A stretch of DNA of 64,000 nt from Ardenticatena maritima (lineage in GTDB: Bacteria > Chloroflexota > Anaerolineae > Ardenticatenales > Ardenticatenaceae): NCBI RefSeq assembly GCF_001306175.1, contig NZ_LGKN01000009.1, forward strand, positions 310,001 to 374,000. The letters are read 5' to 3'. The notes under the pieces are model-generated. The model was not told where the DNA came from, ran no database searches, and was given only the letters and a program-made list of their open reading frames with translations. The position numbers were made by a program, and so were the translations under genes. Below are positions 30,000 through 64,000 of the stretch, in pieces; the stretch's first letter is position 1; each line of letters opens with the position of its first letter.

Positions 30000-30054
30000 G
30001 CCCGAGGCGGCAAATTGCAGAATAGCCCACCAGCGCCCACCGGCAATGGTTTTC

Positions 30055-30083
30055 TTCACGCAATACAACCGTTTTGTTATACT
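30055..30083 (+). promoter_or_regulatory. Promoter of the STAND/WD40 gene
   Basis: TTCACG (30055-30060), 17-bp spacer, TATACT (30078-30083), 37 bp upstream of the ATG at 30121. Confidence 0.55.
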
Positions 30084-30120
30084 TGTGAGGGAGTCAGTGA
30101 AGAAAAAGGAGTACTTGGTG

Positions 30121-33100
30121 ATGAACGACGCACGCCTGCGCCAGGTCTTGGAGCGTTTGCAAAGCGGAACCCTCTCACCGGACGACCTCAATGTCCTGCG
30201 CGAGGCACTCCGCACCGGCCATCTGCGTATCGCCACTGGTGAGCGCGCTGTGGACATCGGCGGCAGCGCGGACGGCGCGGTCATCGTGACCGGCGACAAC
30301 AACATCGTGCGGCTGGACGCCCACCGCCGCGCGCACCTGGAGCGCCTGCTGGCCGCGCCCATCCACAACGTGCCGTCCCTGCCCGACCACTACATCCCGC
30401 GTGAGGAATTTCTGCCCCCCCTGCGGGAAGCCCTGCTGCGCAGCGACGCCACCCCTCTGGGCATCATCGGCGTGCAGGGCATGGGCGGCATCGGCAAGAG
30501 CGTGCTGGCCGCCGCCCTGGCGCGCGACCTGCAGGTGCAGGCCGCCTTCCCCGACGGCGTCATCTGGCTGGAGATGGGGCGCGAGCCGGAACTCACCGCC
30601 CGCCAGGAGGACCTTTACCTGATCCTGACAGGCGAACGCGAAAACTTCAAAGACCCCGCCCAGGGGCGTCTCTTCCTGGCCCCCGCCTTGCAGGAGAAGG
30701 CCTGCCTGGTCATCCTGGACGATGTTTGGGAACTGCCCCACGCGGAAGCCTTCCCTCTGGACCTGGAAGGGATGCGAGCGCGTTTCCTGCTCACCACCCG
30801 CAACGCGGAGATCTTGCAGGCCCTGCAGGCGCAGCCCTTCACCCTGGACGTGCTGACCGAAGAACAGGCCCTGGCCCTGTTGGCCGCCTGGGCCGGGCAG
30901 CAGGTGGAAGACCTGCCCCCCGCCGCCCGCGAAGTGGCCACGGAATGCGGCTACCTGCCTCTGGCCATGGCCATGGTGGGCGCCTTCGTGCGCCAAAATC
31001 CCGAAAGTTGGGAACGCGCCCTGCGCCGCCTGCGCAAGGCTGACCTGGAGAAACTCCGCCGCCTTTTCCCCGGCTACGAACACCCCACCCTGCTGGCGGC
31101 CCTGGAAGTGAGCGTGGCGGCGCTGCCAAAATGGGCGCACGACCGCTACCTGGACCTGGCCGTCTTCCCCGAGGATGAGGCCATCCCCCTGGACGTGCTG
31201 GCCGCCTTCTGGGAACCCCGCGACCTGGATGAAGACGATGTGCTCGACCTGGCCGAGACCTTTGTGAACCGCTCCCTGGCCCGCTGGGAAGAACAAGGCC
31301 GCGCCCTGCGCCTGCACGACCTGCAGCACGACTACCTGCGCGCCGTGCAGAAAGAGCACCTGCCAGACCTGCACCGCCGCTTCCTGCTGGCCTGCGCCCA
31401 AAGTTTGCTGGGCGTTCAGGCCGAGGCATTGGCGGGCCTGCCCTGGCACCGGCTGCCCAACGAGCCCCGCTACCTCTGGCGGCGATTAGTGTACCACCTG
31501 CTGGAAATTCCGGACTGGGACGCGCTCTACCGCCTGCTGACCGACTTTGACTATCTGGAAGCCCGCTGCCGAGCCGACTCGGTCTTCGACCTGGAAGCCG
31601 ATTACCGCCTGGCCCTGGCCCGCTGGCCCCAGGCGGAGGCCAAACGCCGCGAGGTGCTGGCCACCTTTGAAGAGCGCCTGCGCCTGGAAGACCACCGCAT
31701 CGCCATGGCCCCCGAATGGCTCTTCCCGGCCTTTTACAACCACCTCACTTGGTTGGACGCGCCCGACGGCCCCCTGCACGCCCTGTGCGAGGCCGCGGCC
31801 GGAAAGCGCCGGAACTGGCTGCGCTCGGTGCAGGACCCGCGGCCCCAGCCCCCGCCCTGGCTCCGCTCCCTCGAAGGCCACACCAGACCTGTGCGGGCCG
31901 TGGCGGTCAGCCCCGACGGCCGCACCATCGTCAGCGGCTCCTCCGACCACACCGTCAAGGTCTGGGACGCCCACTCCGGCCAACTCATCCGCTCCCTCGA
32001 AGGCCACACCAGACCTGTGCGGGCCGTGGCGGTCAGCCCCGACGGCCGCACCATCGTCAGCGGCTCCTCCGACCACACCGTCAAGGTCTGGGACGCCCAC
32101 TCCGGCCAACTCATCCGCTCCCTCGAAGGCCACACCTGGTCAGTGAACGCCGTGGCGGTCAGCCCCGACGGCCGCACCATCGTCAGCGGCTCCTGGGATC
32201 ACACGGTGAAGGTCTGGGACGCCCACTCCGGCCAACTCATCCGCTCCCTCGAAGGCCACACCGATGCCGTGCAGGCCGTGGCGGTCAGCCCCGACGGCCG
32301 CACCATCGTCAGCGGCTCCTGGGATCACACGGTCAAGGTCTGGGACGCCCACTCCGGCCAACTCATCCGCTCCCTCGAAGGCCACACCAGACCTGTGCGG
32401 GCCGTGGCGGTCAGCCCCGACGGCCGCACCATCGTCAGCGGCTCCTGGGATCACACGGTGAAGGTCTGGGACGCCCAATCCGGCCAACTCATCCGCTCCC
32501 TCGAAGGCCACACCGATGCCGTGCAGGCCGTGGCCGTCAGCCCCGACGGCCGCACCATCGTCAGCGGCTCCGATGACCGCACCGTCAAGGTCTGGGACGC
32601 CCAATCCGGCCAACTGCTGCGCTCCCTGGAAGGCCACACCAATTGGGTGCTGGCCGTGGCGGTCAGCCCCGACGGCCGCACGGTCGTCAGCGGCTCCGAC
32701 GACTGCACCGTCAAGGTCTGGGACGCCCACTCCGGCCAACTCCTCCGCTCCCTGGAAGGCCACACGGATGAGGTGAACGCCGTGGCGGTCAGCCCCGACG
32801 GCCGCACCATCGTCAGCGGCTCCTGGGATCACACGGTCAAGGTCTGGGACGCCCACTCCGGCCAACTCATCCGCTCCCTCGAAGGCCACACCAGACCTGT
32901 GCGGGCCGTGGCGGTCAGCCCCGACGGCCGCACCATCGTCAGCGGCTCCTGGGATCACACGGTGAAGGTCTGGGACGCCCAATCCGGCCAACTCATCCGC
33001 TCCCTCGAAGGCCACACCGATGCCGTGCAGGCCGTGGCCGTCAGCCCCGACGGCCGCACCATCGTCAGCGGCTCCGATGACCGCACCGTCAAGGTCTGGG

Positions 33101-33489
33101 ACGCCCAATCCGGCCAACTGCTGCGCTCCCTGGAAGGCCACACCAATTGGGTGCTGGCCGTGGCGGTCAGCCCCGACGGCCGCACGGTCGTCAGCGGCTC
33201 CGACGACTGCACCGTCAAGGTCTGGGACGCCCACTCCGGCCAACTCCTCCGCTCCCTGGAAGGCCACACGGATGAGGTGAACGCCGTGGCGGTCAGCCCC
33301 GACGGCCGCACCATCGTCAGCGGCTCATCCGACCGCACGCTGCGCGCCTGGGACCTGGAACGCGGCGAATCCCGCGTGCTCTTCTGGAACGACGCGTCGA
33401 TCCCCTCCCTCGCCATCTCGCCCGACGGCCGCACCCTGGCCTGCGGGGACGGTCAAGGGCGGGTGTGGATTTTCGAATGGGTGCGCTAA
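30121..33489 (+). CDS. NB-ARC STAND ATPase with N-terminal adaptor-like region and WD40 propeller
   Basis: A 1122-residue signal-transduction ATPase. Start ATG 30121 has AAGGAG at 30106-30111. Layout: a short helical N-terminus with an RAVDIGGSADGAVIVTGDNN beta segment (1-80), resembling adaptor segments of conflict-type STAND proteins; NB-ARC with Walker A GVQGMGGIGKS (117-127), Walker B LVILDDVW (196-203) and GYLPLA (277-282); a helical arm; then twelve 42-residue WD repeats from residue 583 and a degenerate thirteenth. Repeats are near-identical in DNA, so recently amplified. Such proteins act as ligand-sensing switches, often in defence or cell death. No effector domain is visible in cis and no obvious partner is adjacent, so the role is inferred. 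Confidence 0.92.
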   Translation: MNDARLRQVLERLQSGTLSPDDLNVLREALRTGHLRIATGERAVDIGGSADGAVIVTGDNNIVRLDAHRRAHLERLLAAPIHNVPSLPDHYIPREEFLPPLREALLRSDATPLGIIGVQGMGGIGKSVLAAALARDLQVQAAFPDGVIWLEMGREPELTARQEDLYLILTGERENFKDPAQGRLFLAPALQEKACLVILDDVWELPHAEAFPLDLEGMRARFLLTTRNAEILQALQAQPFTLDVLTEEQALALLAAWAGQQVEDLPPAAREVATECGYLPLAMAMVGAFVRQNPESWERALRRLRKADLEKLRRLFPGYEHPTLLAALEVSVAALPKWAHDRYLDLAVFPEDEAIPLDVLAAFWEPRDLDEDDVLDLAETFVNRSLARWEEQGRALRLHDLQHDYLRAVQKEHLPDLHRRFLLACAQSLLGVQAEALAGLPWHRLPNEPRYLWRRLVYHLLEIPDWDALYRLLTDFDYLEARCRADSVFDLEADYRLALARWPQAEAKRREVLATFEERLRLEDHRIAMAPEWLFPAFYNHLTWLDAPDGPLHALCEAAAGKRRNWLRSVQDPRPQPPPWLRSLEGHTRPVRAVAVSPDGRTIVSGSSDHTVKVWDAHSGQLIRSLEGHTRPVRAVAVSPDGRTIVSGSSDHTVKVWDAHSGQLIRSLEGHTWSVNAVAVSPDGRTIVSGSWDHTVKVWDAHSGQLIRSLEGHTDAVQAVAVSPDGRTIVSGSWDHTVKVWDAHSGQLIRSLEGHTRPVRAVAVSPDGRTIVSGSWDHTVKVWDAQSGQLIRSLEGHTDAVQAVAVSPDGRTIVSGSDDRTVKVWDAQSGQLLRSLEGHTNWVLAVAVSPDGRTVVSGSDDCTVKVWDAHSGQLLRSLEGHTDEVNAVAVSPDGRTIVSGSWDHTVKVWDAHSGQLIRSLEGHTRPVRAVAVSPDGRTIVSGSWDHTVKVWDAQSGQLIRSLEGHTDAVQAVAVSPDGRTIVSGSDDRTVKVWDAQSGQLLRSLEGHTNWVLAVAVSPDGRTVVSGSDDCTVKVWDAHSGQLLRSLEGHTDEVNAVAVSPDGRTIVSGSSDRTLRAWDLERGESRVLFWNDASIPSLAISPDGRTLACGDGQGRVWIFEWVR
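31867..33378 (+). repeat. Twelve tandem 126-bp WD40-coding repeats
   Basis: Units start every 126 bp from 31867. Each encodes SLEGHT-xxVx-AVAVSPDG-RT.VSGS-xDxTVKVWDA-xSGQL.R. Differences concentrate at a few codons (RP/WS/DA/NW/DE after GHT; S/W/D and H/R/C before TVKVWD). Units 5-8 (32371-32874) and 9-12 (32875-33378) form a higher-order 504-bp duplication. Confidence 0.95.
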
Positions 33490-44927: not shown

Positions 44928-46451
44928 TCAATCACGCCCGCGATACTGCAACGCCTCAGCAAGGTGAACGGTCTCGATGACATCACTGTCGGCGAGGTCG
45001 GCAATGGTGCGCGCCACTTTGAGCACACGATGATAGGCGCGCGCACTCAAATTCATCTGGCGCATGGCCATTTTCAACAGCTGTTGCCCATCGGGCTTGA
45101 GCTGGGCGTAGAGCCGCAACTCGGCGGGTCCCATGTCGGCATTGCAATGCACATGCGGCAAATGCTCAAACCGCGCCTGCTGCGCCCGCCGTGCGGCTTC
45201 GACACGCTCGCGCACATCACGGCTGGGCTCGCCCAAACGCGCATCGGCGAGTTTTTCATACTCCACACGTGGCACTTCCACGCGAATATCGAAGCGGTCG
45301 AGAAGCGGGCCCGAAATGCGCTTCTGGTAGCGGATGATGGCGTGCGGTGAACAGGTGCATTCGTGCGTGGGATCGCTGAAATAGCCGCAGGGGCAGGGGT
45401 TCATGGCGGCGACCAGCATGAAGTTGGCGGGAAACGTAAGCGCCCCCTGAGCGCGGCTGATGGTGACCTGTTTGTCTTCCAGCGGCTGGCGCAACGTTTC
45501 CAGATTGCGCGCGCCAAATTCGGGCAATTCATCCAGGAACAAGACGCCATGATGGGCAAGGCTAATCTCGCCGGGGCGCGGCCAACGTCCACCCCCCACC
45601 AGCCCGGCGTGGCTGATGGTGTGGTGAGGCGCACGAAACGGGCGCTGGCGCACAAGCGGGGCGTCGCCGGGGAGGGCGTCGGCAACGCTGTAAATGGCGG
45701 TGACCGCCAAGGCTTCGTCGAGCGTCATGCGTGGCAAAATGCCCTGCAAGGCACGCGCTAGCATCGTCTTGCCGGCGCCCGGCGGGCCACTCATGAGGAC
45801 GTTATGACCACCCGCCGCGGCCACTTCCAGCGCCCGCTTGGCATGTTCTTGCCCCTTGATGTGGCAAAAATCAACGTAGTGCGGGTCATCACCCTGCACA
45901 GTCAAATTGGCGACCACCGGCGGACGGCGCGGAATACGTTTGACGCCATGAAAATGCTGCACAAGCGTCGGCACGTCAGGCACGCCATACACTTCAATTT
46001 CAGGAATGAGCGCGGCTTCATCCACATCACACGCGGGCACAAACAACCGCTTGAACCCCTCACGGCGCGCGGCGGCGGCAATCGGCAAAATACCGCTCAC
46101 ATGCCGCACATCACCATTCAGCGACAGTTCCCCAACAAACAGCGCATCGTCCACATCGGCGCTCACCTGCCCCGTTGCCAACAACAACCCCACCGCGATG
46201 GGCAAGTCGTAGGCGGGACCCTCCTTGCGCAAATCGGCGGGGGCGAGGTTGATCGTCAGGCGGCGGCGCGTGAAAGCACACCCACTGTTGAGCAAGGCGG
46301 CGCGCACACGCTCTTTGGCTTCGCGCACAGCCGCATCGGGCAGCCCCACAATCGTCACAATGCCGGCTTGCCCATGCGAGACATCCACTTCCACGCGAAT
46401 GGGCAGCCCTTCCAGACCATTCAACGCACAGGTGTAGACGGTGGCTAACAC
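44928..46451 (-). CDS. comM: YifB/ComM-family Mg-chelatase-like AAA ATPase
   Basis: A 507-residue AAA+ ATPase. The N-terminal Lon-like segment (FTRRRLTINLAPADLRKEG) is followed by the Mg-chelatase domain with Walker A GPPGAGKTMLARAL (about 220), Walker B VLFLDELPEF and a zinc-type cysteine cluster CPCGYFSDPTHECTC. The C-terminal LSARAYHRVLKVARTIADL matches ComM. In naturally competent bacteria ComM promotes branch migration during transformation (family knowledge). Confidence 0.95.
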   Translation of the reverse strand: MLATVYTCALNGLEGLPIRVEVDVSHGQAGIVTIVGLPDAAVREAKERVRAALLNSGCAFTRRRLTINLAPADLRKEGPAYDLPIAVGLLLATGQVSADVDDALFVGELSLNGDVRHVSGILPIAAAARREGFKRLFVPACDVDEAALIPEIEVYGVPDVPTLVQHFHGVKRIPRRPPVVANLTVQGDDPHYVDFCHIKGQEHAKRALEVAAAGGHNVLMSGPPGAGKTMLARALQGILPRMTLDEALAVTAIYSVADALPGDAPLVRQRPFRAPHHTISHAGLVGGGRWPRPGEISLAHHGVLFLDELPEFGARNLETLRQPLEDKQVTISRAQGALTFPANFMLVAAMNPCPCGYFSDPTHECTCSPHAIIRYQKRISGPLLDRFDIRVEVPRVEYEKLADARLGEPSRDVRERVEAARRAQQARFEHLPHVHCNADMGPAELRLYAQLKPDGQQLLKMAMRQMNLSARAYHRVLKVARTIADLADSDVIETVHLAEALQYRGRD

Positions 46452-46537
46452 GGGGAAACTCCTTTCAAATTACGGGGGTTGTTCAGAGAAGTTGTGTGAA
46501 CCGATTTCAGTCGAAACGTGTATTTAGAAGTGAAGTA

Positions 46538-46546
46538 TGCTATACT
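46538..46546 (+). promoter_or_regulatory. Extended -10 promoter of the small membrane-protein gene
   Basis: TGC-TATACT (46538-46546), a TG-extended -10 without a good -35, 30 bp before the start at 46577. Confidence 0.5.
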
Positions 46547-46576
46547 CCTGAAAACATTTTTGCAAAATCAAAGCCT

Positions 46577-46945
46577 ATGCGTTCTTATGATCCACTTGAC
46601 CAATTGATACGCGACTCATTACACGCGGTGTATGGCGACGAGCATCTCTCGAATCGTCCTTACGAGCGCTTGATGGCGCGTCTGCGGAAAGAAACCTTGC
46701 CCCGCGTGCCGGCGCCCGTCCTCGTCTTTGCAGGCGCTATCGTACTTGTAGTGCTCTTAATGCCGCCTGAGTTCCCATCATCGCCAACGGCGCACTGGAC
46801 ACCGCCGCCATCCGCCGACCCGGCTGTGCAAGTCTATACCCAACAGACCAAACCAGGCGCGCGCATCCCTTTGGCGTGGCTGATTGATGAACCGAACGGT
46901 ATCGCCGTGGAAACGCCGAGAGCGGAATGGGGTAAGACGCAGTAA
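46577..46945 (+). CDS. Small single-span membrane protein, function unknown
   Basis: A 122-residue protein. A helical N-terminus (SYDPLDQLIRDSLHAVYGDE, RPYERLMARLRKETL) is followed by one membrane helix (PVLVFAGAIVLVVLLMP) and a Pro/Thr-rich external tail. The start at 46577 is chosen downstream of the extended -10; the ribosome-binding site is weak. No family was recognised. It could be an anti-sigma-like protein by shape, but no sigma partner is adjacent. Confidence 0.6.
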   Translation: MRSYDPLDQLIRDSLHAVYGDEHLSNRPYERLMARLRKETLPRVPAPVLVFAGAIVLVVLLMPPEFPSSPTAHWTPPPSADPAVQVYTQQTKPGARIPLAWLIDEPNGIAVETPRAEWGKTQ

Positions 46946-46986
46946 ACGCGGCGCTCTTCAAATGCGTATCAGGTGTTGAGAAAGAG

Positions 46987-47016
46987 GCGGCTGGGGAATT
47001 CCCCAGCCGCGTTTGT
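46987..47016. terminator. Terminator-like palindrome
   Basis: GCGGCTGGGG-AATT-CCCCAGCCGC followed by GTTTGTG, between convergent genes. Confidence 0.65.
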
Positions 47017-47017
47017 G

Positions 47018-47746
47018 TTATTCGAGGGTTTCGCCCGGTTGCAAAGCGAAAATTTGCAAGCCGTCAATGTCTTTGGTCAACTCGGCCAGGGCGTCGGGTG
47101 TGCCCGTCAGCAAGGGGAACGTGCCGAAATGCATGGGCACCACCGCTTTGGCGTTCAGCAAGCGGATGGCTTTGTTGGCTTCTTTGGGCGACATCGTAAA
47201 GTGGTCGCCAATGGGCAGCAAGCAGAGGTCGGGCTGGTAGAGTTCGCCAATCAGCGCCATATCGCTAAACACGGCCGTATCGCCCGCGTGGTAAATGCGG
47301 TAGCCGTTTTCCAATTCGATGACGTAGCCGGCGGCTTCACCACCGTAGATGATTTTGCCGTCGTCCAGAATGCCGCAGGAGTGGACGGCGTGCGTCATCG
47401 TCACCTTGATACCACCCACATCAACCGTACCGCCCTTGTTCATGGGAATGCAGTTGTCTTGGGGCACGCCTTTGGATTGCAACCAATTGATGAGTTCAAA
47501 AATCCCGACCACCGTACAACCGGTTTGTTTGGCAATGGGCACGGCATCGCCAATGTGGTCGAAATGCCCATGCGTGCAGAGCATCACATCGAGTGAATCA
47601 ATGCCGCCGTTTTTGTAGGTGTCGGGACAAGCGGGGTTGCCGTCCACCCAGGGGTCAACCAAAATGCGCTTTCCACCGGGACTTTCAATGAGGAATGTTG
47701 CGTGACCAAGCCAGGTGAGTTTCACACCAGCATTGAGACGCCCCAT
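47018..47746 (-). CDS. UPF0173-family metal-dependent hydrolase
   Basis: A 242-residue metallo-beta-lactamase-fold protein. The start at 47746 has AAGGAGGGAG upstream. Landmarks: KLTWLGHATFLIESPGGKRI at the start, LCTHGHFDHIGDAVPIAK (HxHxDH), TMTHAVHSCGILDDG and RIYHAGDTAVFSDMALIGE, with a terminal VVPMHFGTFPLL. The zinc site is complete. The family's substrate is not known. Confidence 0.9.
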   Translation of the reverse strand: MGRLNAGVKLTWLGHATFLIESPGGKRILVDPWVDGNPACPDTYKNGGIDSLDVMLCTHGHFDHIGDAVPIAKQTGCTVVGIFELINWLQSKGVPQDNCIPMNKGGTVDVGGIKVTMTHAVHSCGILDDGKIIYGGEAAGYVIELENGYRIYHAGDTAVFSDMALIGELYQPDLCLLPIGDHFTMSPKEANKAIRLLNAKAVVPMHFGTFPLLTGTPDALAELTKDIDGLQIFALQPGETLE

Positions 47747-57035: not shown

Positions 57036-57083
57036 CACGCCATACCGCCCCCGCCATCAAACATGAAGAGCACGCGGAAGCGC

Positions 57084-58439
57084 ATGATGGACGCACGAAC
57101 ACTCTTGCCGCACCTCATCACAGCCGCCCTCGACGCCGTAGAACCACGGCGGGCTGTGCACCGCGTTCTTCACCGTGATGGGAAGCACCTCACTGTTGGC
57201 GCACAGACGTACACGATCGAAGCGCCCACACGGCTTTTTGTGGTTGGCATGGGGAAAGCCGCCGCCCGTATGGCGCTTGCAGTGCACGAAACAGCGGGCG
57301 ACCTCATCACCGATGGGCTAGTCATCACCAAATATGGGCACGCCACCGCTCCCGCGATTGGGCGCATTCGTGTGCGTGAAGCCGCCCACCCCGTCCCTGA
57401 TGAAGCCGGTGTTGCCGCCACCAACGCCATGTTGAGCCTGCTTGCCGACACCCGCCCCGATGACCTTGTGCTGGTGCTGGTTTCGGGCGGCGGTTCAGCA
57501 TTGTTGGTCGCCCCCGCCCCTGGATTGCACCTCGCCGACCTGCAACAAACCACCGACCTGTTGCTCGCCTCAGGCGCCACCATTCACGAACTCAACACGG
57601 TACGCAAGCACCTCTCAGCGGTGAAAGGGGGGCAACTGGCGCGCCATGCCGCCCCCGCGCATGTGGAAACGCTTATCATCAGCGACGTTGTCGGCGACGA
57701 CCTGGACGTCATCGCCAGCGGTCCCACCGTCCCCGACCCCACCACGTTCGCCGACGCCAAAGCCGTTTTGGAACGCTACGACCTGTGGGAGCGCGTGCCC
57801 CCCGCTGTGCGCCACCACCTGAACGCGGGCTGTGCCGGTCATCTTCCAGAAACGCCCAAACCGGGCGACCCTCTCTTCGAGCGCGTGCGCAATCACCTCA
57901 TCGCCCGCAACGCCGACGCAGCGCAAGCCGCCGCCGAGGAAGCAGGGCGTGCAGGCTGGCATGCCGAAGTGCTCACCACTTTCTTGCAGGGCGAAGCACG
58001 CGAAGTTGGGCGCGTTGTCGCCGCACTGGGGCAACAGATTGCCCGGTACGATACGCCTTTGCCCACGCCCGCTTGCCTGATATTGGGGGGCGAAACGACG
58101 GTTACGGTACGGGGCAATGGGATAGGCGGACGAAATCAGGAGTTGGCGTTAGCCGCGGCGCTTGCTATTGAAGGATGGGAGCGCCTGCTGATTGCCACAT
58201 TTGCCACCGACGGCGGCGATGGTCCAACAGAAGCCGCCGGGGGCGTGGTGGACGGCGCAACAGCGCAAGCCATACGCACCGCCGGTATAGACCCACGCCG
58301 TGCGCTCGACAACAACGATAGTTATCATGCGCTCCACACCGCTCACGCGCTCATCGTCACCGGCCCCACGGGAACGAACGTCACCGACCTAGTGTTTGTC
58401 CTCGTAGACCGCTCGCCAACACAAAAACACCCCCGCTGA
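57084..58439 (+). CDS. Glycerate 2-kinase (MOFRL family)
   Basis: A 451-residue kinase of the MOFRL/DUF4147 family, which phosphorylates glycerate in serine or tartronate pathways. Landmarks: LFVVGMGKAAARMALAV, VLVSGGGSALLVAPAPGL, ELNTVRKHLSAVKGGQLA and the C-terminal GGRNQELALAAAL plus FATDGGDGPTEAAGGVVDG. An ATG at 57063 could extend it by seven residues; the internal ATG at 57084 follows GCGGAAG. Its last 106 bp are duplicated downstream. Confidence 0.92.
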   Translation: MMDARTLLPHLITAALDAVEPRRAVHRVLHRDGKHLTVGAQTYTIEAPTRLFVVGMGKAAARMALAVHETAGDLITDGLVITKYGHATAPAIGRIRVREAAHPVPDEAGVAATNAMLSLLADTRPDDLVLVLVSGGGSALLVAPAPGLHLADLQQTTDLLLASGATIHELNTVRKHLSAVKGGQLARHAAPAHVETLIISDVVGDDLDVIASGPTVPDPTTFADAKAVLERYDLWERVPPAVRHHLNAGCAGHLPETPKPGDPLFERVRNHLIARNADAAQAAAEEAGRAGWHAEVLTTFLQGEAREVGRVVAALGQQIARYDTPLPTPACLILGGETTVTVRGNGIGGRNQELALAAALAIEGWERLLIATFATDGGDGPTEAAGGVVDGATAQAIRTAGIDPRRALDNNDSYHALHTAHALIVTGPTGTNVTDLVFVLVDRSPTQKHPR

Positions 58440-58452
58440 CCGGGGGCGTTTT
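58422..58452. terminator. Bidirectional terminator after glycerate kinase
   Basis: CCCCCG-CTGAC-CGGGGG with A-rich and TTTT flanks works on both strands, for the kinase gene and for the convergent lipoprotein gene. It recurs in copy 2 at 60050-60080. Confidence 0.8.
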
Positions 58453-58468
58453 CTCCTTCCACACGGAT

Positions 58469-59791
58469 TCACGACGACGGCATCGGCGCCCACTTGACCC
58501 ATACCCACCAGAGCGGTAGCCCATATTTGTCACGCGGGTAACCAGGGCTGTCTTCTCCTTCGCTCCAGACCAGCCACTTTTCATTGCACTTATAATCACC
58601 AATAAACCGAGGCGTGTACAGCCGGTAATATCGCTCCGTTTTCAGGTTGTAGAGCCGCAAACTCTCGCCACCCGCTTCAACCGCCTTCCACAACAACCAA
58701 TCACCACACATTTGGACCGTCTCAGGCACCAATGTCTCGAAATGCACTTTATACTCCCGCTGGTCCTTCCAGTTGTACAAGCGCAACCGCGACGACGCAA
58801 CCCAGTTGTTGGCATCCTTCCACACAAGCCAATCCCCAAAAAACCGTGGCATGCTCCCGTAAGGCAGATGAACCGGAAAATCCCGCGGCACCCACTTCCC
58901 TTCCGCATCCCGCTCAAACATTTGCAACGTACTCCCACCTCCCTCGCTATCCGGAAAATTCTTCTGCCCCACCAGAATATCTCCCTCTACCGCAACAACC
59001 CACCACAAAAAGGGACCATAATAGTCACAATGTGTCTCTACAATCTGTTGCTCCCAACTCTCTACCTCAACCGTCATCAGATACACAGGCCCACAATTAG
59101 CCTCTTCATCATCCACGTAATACGCCAACGCCACTGTACGCCCATCAAAATCATACGCCGGCCCCGGCCAACTCGACCTGTCCGACACCGCCAACACGTC
59201 ATACACCTCGCCCGTCTCTTCACGTAGAACACGCACAACCCACGGAAACTCCTCCTCGAACATCCCAACATCATACAACAGCACCCATCCATTCCGCGCC
59301 TTGCCGAACGCAATCTCGCTGGTCTCAAAAAGCGGAGCCACTATCTCCTGCTCCAATTCCCCCGTTTGAATGTTGTACCGTGAAACCCCGCCATGCCCCG
59401 GATTGCCTGGTGTAAAATACACCACATCGCCGCTCAACTGCACATACATGGGGGCTGTATCCGAAAACGTCAACTGCCCAGCAATCTCCGCGGGAAACTT
59501 CTCCCACAACCCCACACTCACATCGTCAATCGTCACAGGTGTGGGCGTCGCCGGCGGAACGGTTGGCGTGGGAAGCGCCGTCGGGCTTGGAGGAACCGCC
59601 TCCGTTGGCGTCAACGCCGCCGTTGGGCTAAGCGTGACCGCCACAGAGGACGACGCCACTTCACCGCCGCGTGCCGCCCCCGTATCCGCCGCTGGTGCGC
59701 CTTCACTACTCACCGCCGCCTGGCACCCTATACCCACCAGGCTGACCAGCACCCACACAAGCACCCAGACATACCTCACTTGTCGCTGCAT
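58469..59791 (-). CDS. Propeller-like lipoprotein, duplicate copy 1
   Basis: A 440-residue lipoprotein from the ATG at 59791 (AAGGAG upstream). The signal peptide ends in a lipobox (SLVGIGC). A Thr/Pro/Ala-rich stalk (about 30-100) precedes repeated beta motifs with recurring W-D-G patterns: GDVVYFTPGNPGHGGVSRYN, WLVWKDANNWVASSRLRLYN, DWLLWKAVEAGGESLRLYN, KWLVWSEGEDSPG. This suggests a TolB/PD40-like propeller. Function unknown; copy 2 is nearly identical. Confidence 0.8.
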   Translation of the reverse strand: MQRQVRYVWVLVWVLVSLVGIGCQAAVSSEGAPAADTGAARGGEVASSSVAVTLSPTAALTPTEAVPPSPTALPTPTVPPATPTPVTIDDVSVGLWEKFPAEIAGQLTFSDTAPMYVQLSGDVVYFTPGNPGHGGVSRYNIQTGELEQEIVAPLFETSEIAFGKARNGWVLLYDVGMFEEEFPWVVRVLREETGEVYDVLAVSDRSSWPGPAYDFDGRTVALAYYVDDEEANCGPVYLMTVEVESWEQQIVETHCDYYGPFLWWVVAVEGDILVGQKNFPDSEGGGSTLQMFERDAEGKWVPRDFPVHLPYGSMPRFFGDWLVWKDANNWVASSRLRLYNWKDQREYKVHFETLVPETVQMCGDWLLWKAVEAGGESLRLYNLKTERYYRLYTPRFIGDYKCNEKWLVWSEGEDSPGYPRDKYGLPLWWVWVKWAPMPSS

Positions 59792-59961
59792 ACATCGCTC
59801 CTTCTCGTTGACTGATAGACTCAGCGATAGTGCCTTCGCCCGGCCAGTGTAGCCCTTCCATCCCCTTCTGTCTATCCTCTTTTCCGAGGATTTTTTGAGG
59901 ATTTTTTCTCCTCTCCCCCTCAGTATCTGGGGCATACGCCCGCCTTGGCATGGTTGACAGA

Positions 59962-60067
59962 CCACACCGCTCACGCGCTCATCGTCACCGGCCCCACGGG
60001 AACGAACGTCACCGACCTAGTGTTTGTCCTCGTAGACCGCTCGCCAACACAAAAACACCCCCGCTGA
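59962..60067 (+). pseudogene. Duplicated 3' fragment of the glycerate kinase gene
   Basis: Copies the last 106 bp (including the stop) of the kinase gene at 58334-58439. It has no start or body, so it cannot encode a functional product. It is the left end of the second duplication copy. Confidence 0.95.
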
Positions 60068-60096
60068 CCGGGGGCGTTTTCTCCTTCCACACGGAT

Positions 60097-61419
60097 TCAC
60101 GACGACGGCATCGGCGCCCACTTGACCCATACCCACCAGAGCGGTAGCCCATATTTGTCACGCGGGTAACCAGGGCTGTCTTCTCCTTCGCTCCAGACCA
60201 GCCACTTTTCATTGCACTTATAATCACCAATAAACCGAGGCGTGTACAGCCGGTAATATCGCTCCGTTTTCAGGTTGTAGAGCCGCAAACTCTCGCCACC
60301 CGCTTCAACCGCCTTCCACAACAACCAATCACCACACATTTGGACCGTCTCAGGCACCAATGTCTCGAAATGCACTTTATACTCCCGCTGGTCCTTCCAG
60401 TTGTACAAGCGCAACCGCGACGACGCAACCCAGTTGTTGGCATCCTTCCACACAAGCCAATCCCCAAAAAACCGTGGCATGCTCCCGTAAGGCAGATGAA
60501 CCGGAAAATCCCGCGGCACCCACTTCCCTTCCGCATCCCGCTCAAACATTTGCAACGTACTCCCACCTCCCTCGCTATCCGGAAAATTCTTCTGCCCCAC
60601 CAGAATATCTCCCTCTACCGCAACAACCCACCACAAAAAGGGACCATAATAGTCACAATGTGTCTCTACAATCTGTTGCTCCCAACTCTCTACCTCAACC
60701 GTCATCAGATACACAGGCCCACAATTAGCCTCTTCATCATCCACGTAATACGCCAACGCCACTGTACGCCCATCAAAATCATACGCCGGCCCCGGCCAAC
60801 TCGACCTGTCCGACACCGCCAACACGTCATACACCTCGCCCGTCTCTTCACGTAGAACACGCACAACCCACGGAAACTCCTCCTCGAACATCCCAACATC
60901 ATACAACAGCACCCATCCATTCCGCGCCTTGCCGAACGCAATCTCGCTGGTCTCAAAAAGCGGAGCCACTATCTCCTGCTCCAATTCCCCCGTTTGAATG
61001 TTGTACCGTGAAACCCCGCCATGCCCCGGATTGCCTGGTGTAAAATACACCACATCGCCGCTCAACTGCACATACATGGGGGCTGTATCCGAAAACGTCA
61101 ACTGCCCAGCAATCTCCGCGGGAAACTTCTCCCACAACCCCACACTCACATCGTCAATCGTCACAGGTGTGGGCGTCGCCGGCGGAACGGTTGGCGTGGG
61201 AAGCGCCGTCGGGCTTGGAGGAACCGCCTCCGTTGGCGTCAACGCCGCCGTTGGGCTAAGCGTGACCGCCACAGAGGACGACGCCACTTCACCGCCGCGT
61301 GTCGCCCCCGTATCCGCCACTGGTGCGCCTTCACTACTCACCGCCGCCTGGCACCCTATACCCACCAGGCTGACCAGCACCCACACAAGCACCCAGACAT
61401 ACCTCACTTGTCGCTGCAT
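60097..61419 (-). CDS. Propeller-like lipoprotein, duplicate copy 2
   Basis: A 440-residue paralogue of the lipoprotein at 58469, with the same start context (AAGGAG, ATG at 61419). Only two residues differ, both in the stalk (Ala to Val and Ala to Thr). The whole propeller part is identical at the protein level. With its upstream region duplicated too, both copies may be expressed, doubling dosage. Function unknown. Confidence 0.8.
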   Translation of the reverse strand: MQRQVRYVWVLVWVLVSLVGIGCQAAVSSEGAPVADTGATRGGEVASSSVAVTLSPTAALTPTEAVPPSPTALPTPTVPPATPTPVTIDDVSVGLWEKFPAEIAGQLTFSDTAPMYVQLSGDVVYFTPGNPGHGGVSRYNIQTGELEQEIVAPLFETSEIAFGKARNGWVLLYDVGMFEEEFPWVVRVLREETGEVYDVLAVSDRSSWPGPAYDFDGRTVALAYYVDDEEANCGPVYLMTVEVESWEQQIVETHCDYYGPFLWWVVAVEGDILVGQKNFPDSEGGGSTLQMFERDAEGKWVPRDFPVHLPYGSMPRFFGDWLVWKDANNWVASSRLRLYNWKDQREYKVHFETLVPETVQMCGDWLLWKAVEAGGESLRLYNLKTERYYRLYTPRFIGDYKCNEKWLVWSEGEDSPGYPRDKYGLPLWWVWVKWAPMPSS

Positions 61420-61581
61420 ACATCGCTCCTTCTCGTCGACTGATAGACTCAGCGATAGTGCCTTCGCCCGGCCAGTGTAGCCCTTCCATCCCCCTCTGTC
61501 TATCCTCTTTTCCGAGGATTTTTCGAGGATTTTTTCTCCTCTCCCCCCCAGTATCTGGAGCATACGCCCGCCTTGGCATGG

Positions 61582-61609
61582 TTGACAGACCGTTCAATAG
61601 CGATATACT
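61582..61609 (+). promoter_or_regulatory. Promoter of the LuxR-type gene
   Basis: Consensus TTGACA (61582-61587), 16-bp spacer, TATACT (61604-61609). The -35 lies inside copy 2 of the duplication and the -10 just outside it. Confidence 0.75.
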
Positions 61610-61733: not shown

Positions 61734-62411
61734 ATGCACCTCATTCTGCTTGCCACAACCCCCGAAGCGGAAAACCAGGCGCTTCACCTGCTTGAGCGCT
61801 CTTCCCATGAGATGACACTCGTGGCCACACATTGCCTCTCACCGCATCGCCCTTTGCCCAACGCCTCGGCCCACACGATCATTCTCGCTTTCGATCACAA
61901 CTCCCCAGCCCATTCACTCGATATCAGCGCCATCAAAACACATTTCAACGCCCCTCTGCTCCTGGTCGCCGCCCCGCTTGCCATTGTGCCCGACGCACTT
62001 CGCCAGGGCGCCAACGGCTGCTTTACCACCTGGCCCCACCCCCACGAACTCTGTGCCGCACTCACCCTGATCACCAATGGGCACACTTTTCTCGACCGTC
62101 ACGCCGCCGCTCTGCTGAACTTGCCTTTTGCGCCTTCCCTCACTGCGCCGCCCGAATTTTCCCCCTTCGCGCAGCTGACCAAGCGCGAACAACAGGTGCT
62201 CGCCATCCTGGGACACGGCGCAAGCAATCAGGAAATCGCGCGGGTTTTGGGCATTTCCATCACAACCGTCCGCACCCATCTCAAGCACCTCTACCGCAAG
62301 TTAGGCGCGCGCAATCGCAGCGAGTTGATCCACATGGCGATGATGTGTCACGAAGTGTTTTTTCGTCTGTTCGTGGTGAGGGAGGGTCGAAGAAGTGGTT
62401 TAAATCTTTGA
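61734..62411 (+). CDS. NarL/LuxR-type transcriptional regulator with pseudo-receiver
   Basis: A 225-residue DNA-binding regulator. The start at 61734 follows AAGGAG. The N-terminal receiver-like alpha/beta domain (1-125) ends in DALRQGANGCFTTWPHPHEL, where the usual Lys is absent. The C-terminal LuxR helix-turn-helix is LTKREQQVLAILGHGASNQE, EIARVLGISITTVRTHLKHL. No histidine kinase is near, so phosphorylation is uncertain. The stop codon overlaps the -35 of the next gene. Confidence 0.87.
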   Translation: MHLILLATTPEAENQALHLLERSSHEMTLVATHCLSPHRPLPNASAHTIILAFDHNSPAHSLDISAIKTHFNAPLLLVAAPLAIVPDALRQGANGCFTTWPHPHELCAALTLITNGHTFLDRHAAALLNLPFAPSLTAPPEFSPFAQLTKREQQVLAILGHGASNQEIARVLGISITTVRTHLKHLYRKLGARNRSELIHMAMMCHEVFFRLFVVREGRRSGLNL

Positions 62412-62435: not shown

Positions 62436-62475
62436 GATTAAATAAAAACAACCTGCAACCATGGGGGCAGTGGTT

Positions 62476-64000
62476 ATGTCCGATAACTGGTTTGAAAGAG
62501 GATTTACTGCTGAAGAGATAGTGGAAGTGGGAGACAAAAAGATAGGAGAGTATGTAGAAACTATTAAAAATAAAAGTATAAATCTTAGTAAACAAAAAGA
62601 TTGGCTTAAAAAATATGTTTTAGTGTTGTATATTTATTTTTCAAGCAACGAAGAAAGTGTTGAGAAATTTATTGCAGGATTTGAATTCGAAACATATCTT
62701 GAGGATTGCAGAAATTTTTATAGAAAAAAAGAGCATGATTTACCTGAATATAAAAGGAAGTTTATTTCAGATATATTAGAAAAAATAGATAATAGTATAT
62801 TAGAAAAAATAGATAATAGAATAGATAAACTAAAAAGAAAAAAATCTAATCAATCTCCAAAGACAAATGCATCCCTAGAGACTGGTGCACCCCTAGAGAC
62901 TAATGCATCCCTAGAGACTGATGCATCCCTAGAGACTGATGCATCCCTAGAGACTGATGCATCCCTAGAGACTAATGCATCCCTAGAGACTGATGCATCC
63001 CTAGAGACTAATGCATCCCTAGAGACTGATGCATCCCTAGAGACTAATGCATCCCTAGAGACTAATGCATCCCTAGAGACTAATGCATCCCTAGAGACTA
63101 ATGCATCCCTAGAGACTAATGCATCCCTAGAGACTGATGCATCCCTAGAGACTAATGCATCCCTAGAGACTGATGCATCCCTAGAGACTAATGCATCCCT
63201 AGAGACTAATGCATCCCTAGAGACTAATGCATCCCTAGGCGAAGGTGATGTTTGGGAGGAATGGGTTACGTTTTGGAAGGAAAACAAAATGGAACGGAAG
63301 GAGAGAATTATTTTTTTAATAAAGCTTATTAATAAGATTCCAACAGAAAATATCGAAAAAAATATTATCTCTTTAAGAACATATCAGGTTCTTACTCTTC
63401 AAATAATCTACCATGCTATTACATCTAAACCTAAACTAACCCAAAATGATATTAAGGAAATAGAAGTTAAAGCAAAAAATAAAATTGATAAAATTTGCAA
63501 AGATTTTATCGAATTTCAAATCAAATATGAAAAAAACCTAGATTTGCATCTAGGTAACAGACTTCATGCTGACACATATTCGTTGCATGACACATTGGGA
63601 TTTGAGGATTATAAAAAGGCGCTAAGAGATTTCATTTTAGATGAAGGCACCAAGGGTCCCTTTGTGATAGCTATTAATGGACCTTGGGGATCTGGCAAAA
63701 CATCTTTTATGCGTCAATTGCAAAGGGACTTGGAAGAAAAAGACGCGCAAAGGGACTTGAAAGAGAAAGACGCTATCACCGTCTGGTTTGATGCCTGGAA
63801 ACATAACTCAAAGGAGTCAGTTTGGGCAGCTCTGGCATTAGAAGTGGAATCTGAAATCTACAAGGGATTAGGATTATGTCCATATTACGAGAAAGTTATT
63901 TGTCATTCTTTAAAAACTAACAAATATAAGCTAATTTCAGATTTTTTTATACTTTTATTTATAACGCTTTTAGCTTGCGATATATATTTTATTTATACCA
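62476..64000 (+). CDS. KAP-family P-loop NTPase, 3' part outside the window
   Basis: An open frame of about 508 residues to the window end. The AUG at 62476 is 8 bp after GGGGG; 62461 is an alternative start. A helical N-terminal region is followed by about 20 hexapeptide repeats (ASLETN/D, 62866-63237), a helical region, then the KAP core: VIAINGPWGSGKTSFMRQLQ (Walker A, near residue 400) and ITVWFDAWKHNSKESVWAAL. A hydrophobic stretch (FFILLFITLLACDIYFIYT) starts at the edge, fitting the membrane insertion typical of KAP NTPases. The codon use is AT-rich, unlike its neighbours, so transfer is likely. Role possibly phage exclusion, inferred only. Confidence 0.85.
   Translation, partial: MSDNWFERGFTAEEIVEVGDKKIGEYVETIKNKSINLSKQKDWLKKYVLVLYIYFSSNEESVEKFIAGFEFETYLEDCRNFYRKKEHDLPEYKRKFISDILEKIDNSILEKIDNRIDKLKRKKSNQSPKTNASLETGAPLETNASLETDASLETDASLETDASLETNASLETDASLETNASLETDASLETNASLETNASLETNASLETNASLETNASLETDASLETNASLETDASLETNASLETNASLETNASLGEGDVWEEWVTFWKENKMERKERIIFLIKLINKIPTENIEKNIISLRTYQVLTLQIIYHAITSKPKLTQNDIKEIEVKAKNKIDKICKDFIEFQIKYEKNLDLHLGNRLHADTYSLHDTLGFEDYKKALRDFILDEGTKGPFVIAINGPWGSGKTSFMRQLQRDLEEKDAQRDLKEKDAITVWFDAWKHNSKESVWAALALEVESEIYKGLGLCPYYEKVICHSLKTNKYKLISDFFILLFITLLACDIYFIYT
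62866..63237 (+). repeat. 18-bp tandem repeat inside the KAP gene, about 20.7 units
   Basis: Unit RATGCATCCCTAGAGACT, read as (N/D)ASLET in frame. Units begin at 62866 and every 18 bp after. The only main variation is AAT versus GAT in the first codon; unit 2 differs more (GGT and CCC). The last unit is truncated. Confidence 0.97.

Follow-up and report, generated by a model that had tools for sequence, protein, structure and literature searches.

Several kinds of duplicated bacterial sequence have been described. Prokaryotic paralogues are known to evolve in concert (PMC6053082). Rearrangements, duplications among them, are very common in bacterial populations, and the confirmed duplication junctions show homology of more than 10 bp (PMC3411829). 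Here we describe a repeat in the window, by which we mean the whole 64,000-nucleotide stretch of DNA that was analysed. The window comes from Ardenticatena, a heat-loving bacterium of hot springs.

Like the spontaneous tandem duplications of Salmonella (PMC3411829), the repeat is a head-to-tail chromosomal segment with short shared ends that are unrelated to gene boundaries. Unlike those duplications, it has a 2-bp rather than a >10-bp junction, its unit is only 1.6 kb long, and one of its ends has diverged, so it is either not freshly formed or not clonal. With duplicated bacterial genes under concerted evolution or gene conversion (PMC6053082) it shares long identical tracts between paralogues and differences confined to a block. 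It departs from them in that the gene is a lineage-specific orphan seen in one genome, where we only infer conversion. An identical case was not found in a literature search. As far as sequence alone shows, this is an ordinary tandem duplication of an orphan lipoprotein gene, with a mosaic of the recombination type, and nothing about it is categorically new.

The repeat unit and its ends

The two copies, A (58334..59961) and B (59962..61589), are each 1628 bp long and 99.57% identical. A base-by-base comparison finds them head-to-tail, in the same orientation and in register, with no indels and with a novel junction between them. This confirms to the base the 1628-bp direct tandem duplication, in exact register and without indels, that had been proposed in the first-pass annotation. 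By adjacency, orientation, register and junction the assembly contains a tandem segmental duplication. In a self-comparison of the 457-kb contig, to which the repeat search was applied, no other repeat comes near the unit in length (an exact match of 1340 bp, as against 548 bp for the runner-up), which excludes a chance origin. Genome-wide there are two copies of the unit and no third. Imperfect repeats of 250-300 bp with 92-93% identity occur outside the window on contig C9, at 45496-47285 and 218837-219458.

The left end of the unit lies inside a glycerate 2-kinase gene (57063..58439, + strand), which carries DUF4147 and MOFRL domains (Pfam E 4e-91 and 2e-37) and matches the NCBIfam glycerate 2-kinase models at E 3e-74, below the curated cut-offs of those models. 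The last 106 bp of the kinase gene are included in copy A, and copy B accordingly begins with a headless 3' remnant of it (59962..60067, + strand). The right end falls in the spacer of a predicted, near-consensus promoter (TTGACA-16-TATACT; 61582..61609, + strand) that lies 5' of a LuxR-type gene. This promoter is intact at the end of copy B, and the internal junction keeps its -35 part only. The gene itself, an orphan LuxR-family regulator with a GerE domain (61734..62411, + strand; GerE E 4e-20), flanks the repeat and is not duplicated; no close relative of it was found in six near relatives. The junction at 59956..59969 reads GACAGA|CCACACCG, with a 2-bp (CC) microhomology between the ends. 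The CC represents two further matching bases past the repeat end, and the flanking sequence is otherwise unrelated. Neither an IS element nor a long repeat was seen at either end.

Between its ends the unit holds a lipoprotein gene, which lies on the - strand at 58469..59791 in copy A and at 60097..61419 in copy B. A sigma-70 promoter is predicted upstream of copy A by consensus match only (TAGACA-17-TACACT; 59846..59874, - strand). The promoter predicted in the same way for copy B (61474..61502, - strand) has the same hexamers and differs in one spacer base. Downstream, a terminator-like hairpin at 58430..58446 (+ strand), repeated in copy B at 60058..60074 (+ strand), lies where the kinase and lipoprotein genes converge. 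It is G+C-paired, has T-runs on both strands and could serve both genes as a predicted terminator. The hairpin and the 106 bp of kinase gene had been overlooked in the first-pass annotation. Since each copy combines a predicted promoter, the gene and the hairpin, the duplicated piece would be a self-contained expression cassette. A perfect inverted repeat, ATCCTC-N6-GAGGAT, lies directly 5' of the predicted lipoprotein -35 box (59874-59891, with its copy at 61502-61519) and is a possible operator candidate.

Clustering of the differences and its cause

Seven differences separate the copies. Given as positions in A and B, with the change from A to B, they are 59674/61302 (C>T), 59691/61319 (G>A), 59809/61437 (T>C), 59866/61494 (T>C), 59896/61524 (T>C), 59920/61548 (T>C) and 59931/61559 (G>A). 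All are transitions and all fall within 258 bp (59674..59931 in A, 61302..61559 in B), in agreement with the count, type and span reported earlier. That all are transitions is not significant, however (p 0.06-0.21 at transition:transversion ratios of 2-4); it carries little weight and needs no explanation. The differences had been placed at the upstream end of the lipoprotein gene. The cluster is indeed there, but only two of the seven are coding (Ala34Val and Ala40Thr, A to B) and the other five lie in the upstream non-coding sequence. The remainder, described as about 1.3 kb that appeared identical, does match in the assembly, over 1340 bp at the start of the unit and 30 bp at its end.

A uniform spread of differences after careful alignment would have spoken against a clustered pattern, and the spread is non-uniform. 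The probability that seven randomly placed differences are all confined to 258 bp of a 1628-bp unit is ~1e-4. Had the identical 1340 bp diverged at the rate of the cluster, about 33 differences would be expected there; none is seen. An identical tract beside a divergent block, beyond chance, is one pattern expected of gene conversion. Another would be paralogues that resemble each other more than their orthologues in the converted tract alone, and the relatives yielded no orthologue.

Weak constraint on the 5' non-coding and signal/linker region, with selection conserving the rest, could in principle produce such a contrast with no recombination at all. The distribution of the differences, five of seven in non-coding sequence and two of seven in the linker, is in keeping with this. 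Against it, the coding sequence that is identical (1.2 kb) contains about 300 synonymous sites, at which an estimated 7 or so changes are expected at the rate of the cluster and none is seen. We consider this the least probable explanation of all, and a most improbable one. As the cluster is non-random and weak 5' constraint is insufficient, recombination is the most economical cause.

The reading that we favour, although with only about even confidence, is a tandem segmental duplication, genuine but of an ordinary kind, that was made mosaic by recombination between its copies. A 1628-bp piece would have been duplicated head to tail by illegitimate recombination using the ~2 bp common to its ends. 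The piece would carry a complete lipoprotein transcription unit (promoter, gene and shared terminator) as well as the tail of the kinase gene. Copies A and B would later have recombined with each other, either by gene conversion or by unequal exchange, that is, expansion and contraction. This would homogenise the first 1.34 kb, so that older differences persist only in the last 290 bp. The expected effect would be a doubled dose of a near-identical envelope lipoprotein.

Gene conversion had been suggested in the first-pass annotation. A duplication with non-uniform divergence holds up, and conversion or unequal exchange between the copies is favoured, but a diverged allele brought in at one end fits the sequence alone equally well, and import is a close rival. 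Here the tandem duplication would be young and at first identical throughout, and the divergent end would have come by homologous recombination from a diverged conspecific strain. The event would replace the end of one copy, possibly along with the LuxR flank, or it may have coincided with the duplication itself. A single unbroken block of divergence at one end, with perfect identity elsewhere, fits one import breakpoint near offset 1340, and no long-lived unstable repeat is needed. On the other hand, no donor or second strain is seen, the gene is absent from the 400 sampled Chloroflexota genomes, and the number of events is the same as for conversion. We regard import as a possible explanation, with appreciably less than an even chance.

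Two properties of the repeat count against the reading that we favour. Its junction homology is 2 bp, compared with more than 10 bp in the confirmed junctions of PMC3411829. The second property is its size: tandem repeats of ~1.6 kb are readily lost by RecA-dependent recombination, and long co-existence of the copies for 2.4% divergence would therefore require selection. Selection might keep the copies as a differentiated pair, with identical propeller domains but different upstream regions and linkers, in which conversion preserves the body. We think this very improbable. If true, the pair would represent one envelope protein under two controls.

Influence of the assembly

The genome assembly examined has 12 contigs and 3.56 Mb. 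The draft of A. maritima 110S reported by Hemp et al. likewise has 12 contigs (3.62 Mb; MiSeq, SPAdes 3.1.1; PMC4653789), and the examined assembly is probably this MiSeq/SPAdes short-read draft. In such a probable short-read product, how many copies a 1.6-kb tandem repeat has, and whether they are exactly identical, is not directly observed. An identical body with a divergent end is the classic footprint of recombination, and it is also what a de Bruijn graph of short reads preserves best. The locus serves mostly as a worked example of the caution needed in judging from draft assemblies how similar and how numerous the copies of a long tandem repeat are.

We analysed the region as a de Bruijn graph with an assumed k of 127. 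The novel junction closes a loop in this graph and so, provided that the assembler worked with k-mers, should have been present in the reads; once it exists there, the order A then B is forced. This bears on the suggestion that the assembler wrote two alleles of a single-copy locus one after the other. A probable short-read draft and two slightly different ends are what such a false duplication would leave. However, the contig is without any Ns, and two alleles should produce a bubble in place of a loop carrying the junction GACAGA|CCACACC, which by this reasoning must exist in the reads. A false duplication is thus very unlikely.

The assembler could still have shaped the pattern on a real duplication, by smoothing a few isolated differences in the body and keeping the chain of differences on the exit branch; more than two copies would then be possible. 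De Bruijn assemblers remove small bubbles such as those from isolated SNPs, and any single SNPs scattered through the identical 1.3 kb could have been lost from the assembly in this way. With k=127 the region forms a simple loop with four edges, in which an isolated SNP makes a small 128-edge bubble; no gap within the cluster exceeds 118, so all are shorter than 127. The arrangements A-B and A-A-B give one and the same graph, so the copy number of the repeat is not fixed by the assembly. The probable MiSeq/SPAdes origin of the 12-contig draft agrees with this explanation, but the difference between 3.62 Mb published and 3.56 Mb examined makes the match of the assemblies uncertain. A uniform divergence of 2.4% is hidden in at most 0.2% of simulations, whereas rates of 0.3-0.6% are hidden in 12-46%. 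Smoothing can therefore soften the contrast between body and end but not create it. The contrast is real, and "identical" is better put as "much less diverged". We hold this explanation to be unlikely as the main cause, although the 1.34-kb identity may be partly an assembly product, which also counts against recombination between the copies. The 548-bp repeat of a WD40 gene in the window, used as a smoothing control, has no isolated differences and speaks neither for nor against smoothing.

The lipoprotein and the surrounding island

The lipoprotein has 440 aa, with a signal peptide, a PROSITE-type lipobox ending in Cys23 (WVLVSLVGIGC, the pattern expected of a bacterial lipoprotein), a PT-rich linker, and ~330 residues with blade-like internal repeats. 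The proteins of copies A and B differ only at residues 34 and 40, both in the linker (Ala and Ala in A, Val and Thr in B). The fold is probably a beta-propeller. Structure prediction from the single sequence gave a poor model (mean pLDDT 46), whose best Foldseek PDB matches are mostly beta-propellers with TM below 0.4. The internal repeat score is 44, compared with 30 at the 95% level of shuffles and a shuffle maximum of 47. The protein resembles known beta-propeller lipoproteins (kelch, TolB-like and XusB structures) in its lipobox, PT-rich linker and blade-like repeats (GDWLVWKD...LRLYN), but it differs from them in having no sequence match in Pfam, NCBIfam or PDB and a model of low confidence.

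Searches of the lipoprotein against PADLOC were likewise without a match. No relatives were found in the genome and viral contig collections or in 12 near relatives, and the 400 sampled Chloroflexota genomes yielded no more than weak matches, almost all of which fell in the signal peptide and PT-rich linker. By these comparisons the gene is an orphan restricted to its lineage. Relatives do show short DNA matches, but these are mostly to the linker and the kinase 3' end and were rejected as orthologues.

In the nearest relative, an Ardenticatena MAG (WFOS01000031.1), the kinase gene is followed after ~120 bp by a gene that we take to be V4R-like. At the locus described here this ~120-bp spacer is replaced by a 6.76-kb island, from 58440 to L021:1198, containing the two lipoprotein copies, the LuxR-type gene and a KAP-type NTPase gene (34% G+C, carrying an array of 18-bp repeats). 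At 57-59% G+C, the lipoprotein and LuxR genes are near the contig mean of 60%, in contrast to the KAP gene, so the island is probably composite in origin.

The KAP-type gene (62461-64000, on to L021:1199) encodes 912 aa, is A+T-rich and weakly PifA/QatA/PDC-S20-like, and looks foreign and possibly defence-related. One array consists of 21 copies of an 18-bp unit and codes for (N/D)ASLET hexapeptides; the other, a 48-bp array, codes for QEPEPTPGQKPSENNS. Its stop codon overlaps the start of the V4R-like gene. Further upstream in the window, at 30046-33489, the WD40 gene encodes 1147 aa with a putative NTPase-like N-terminal part followed by WD40 blades. Its 126-bp array includes a perfect, recent internal duplication of 504 bp, or four blades (548 bp exact).
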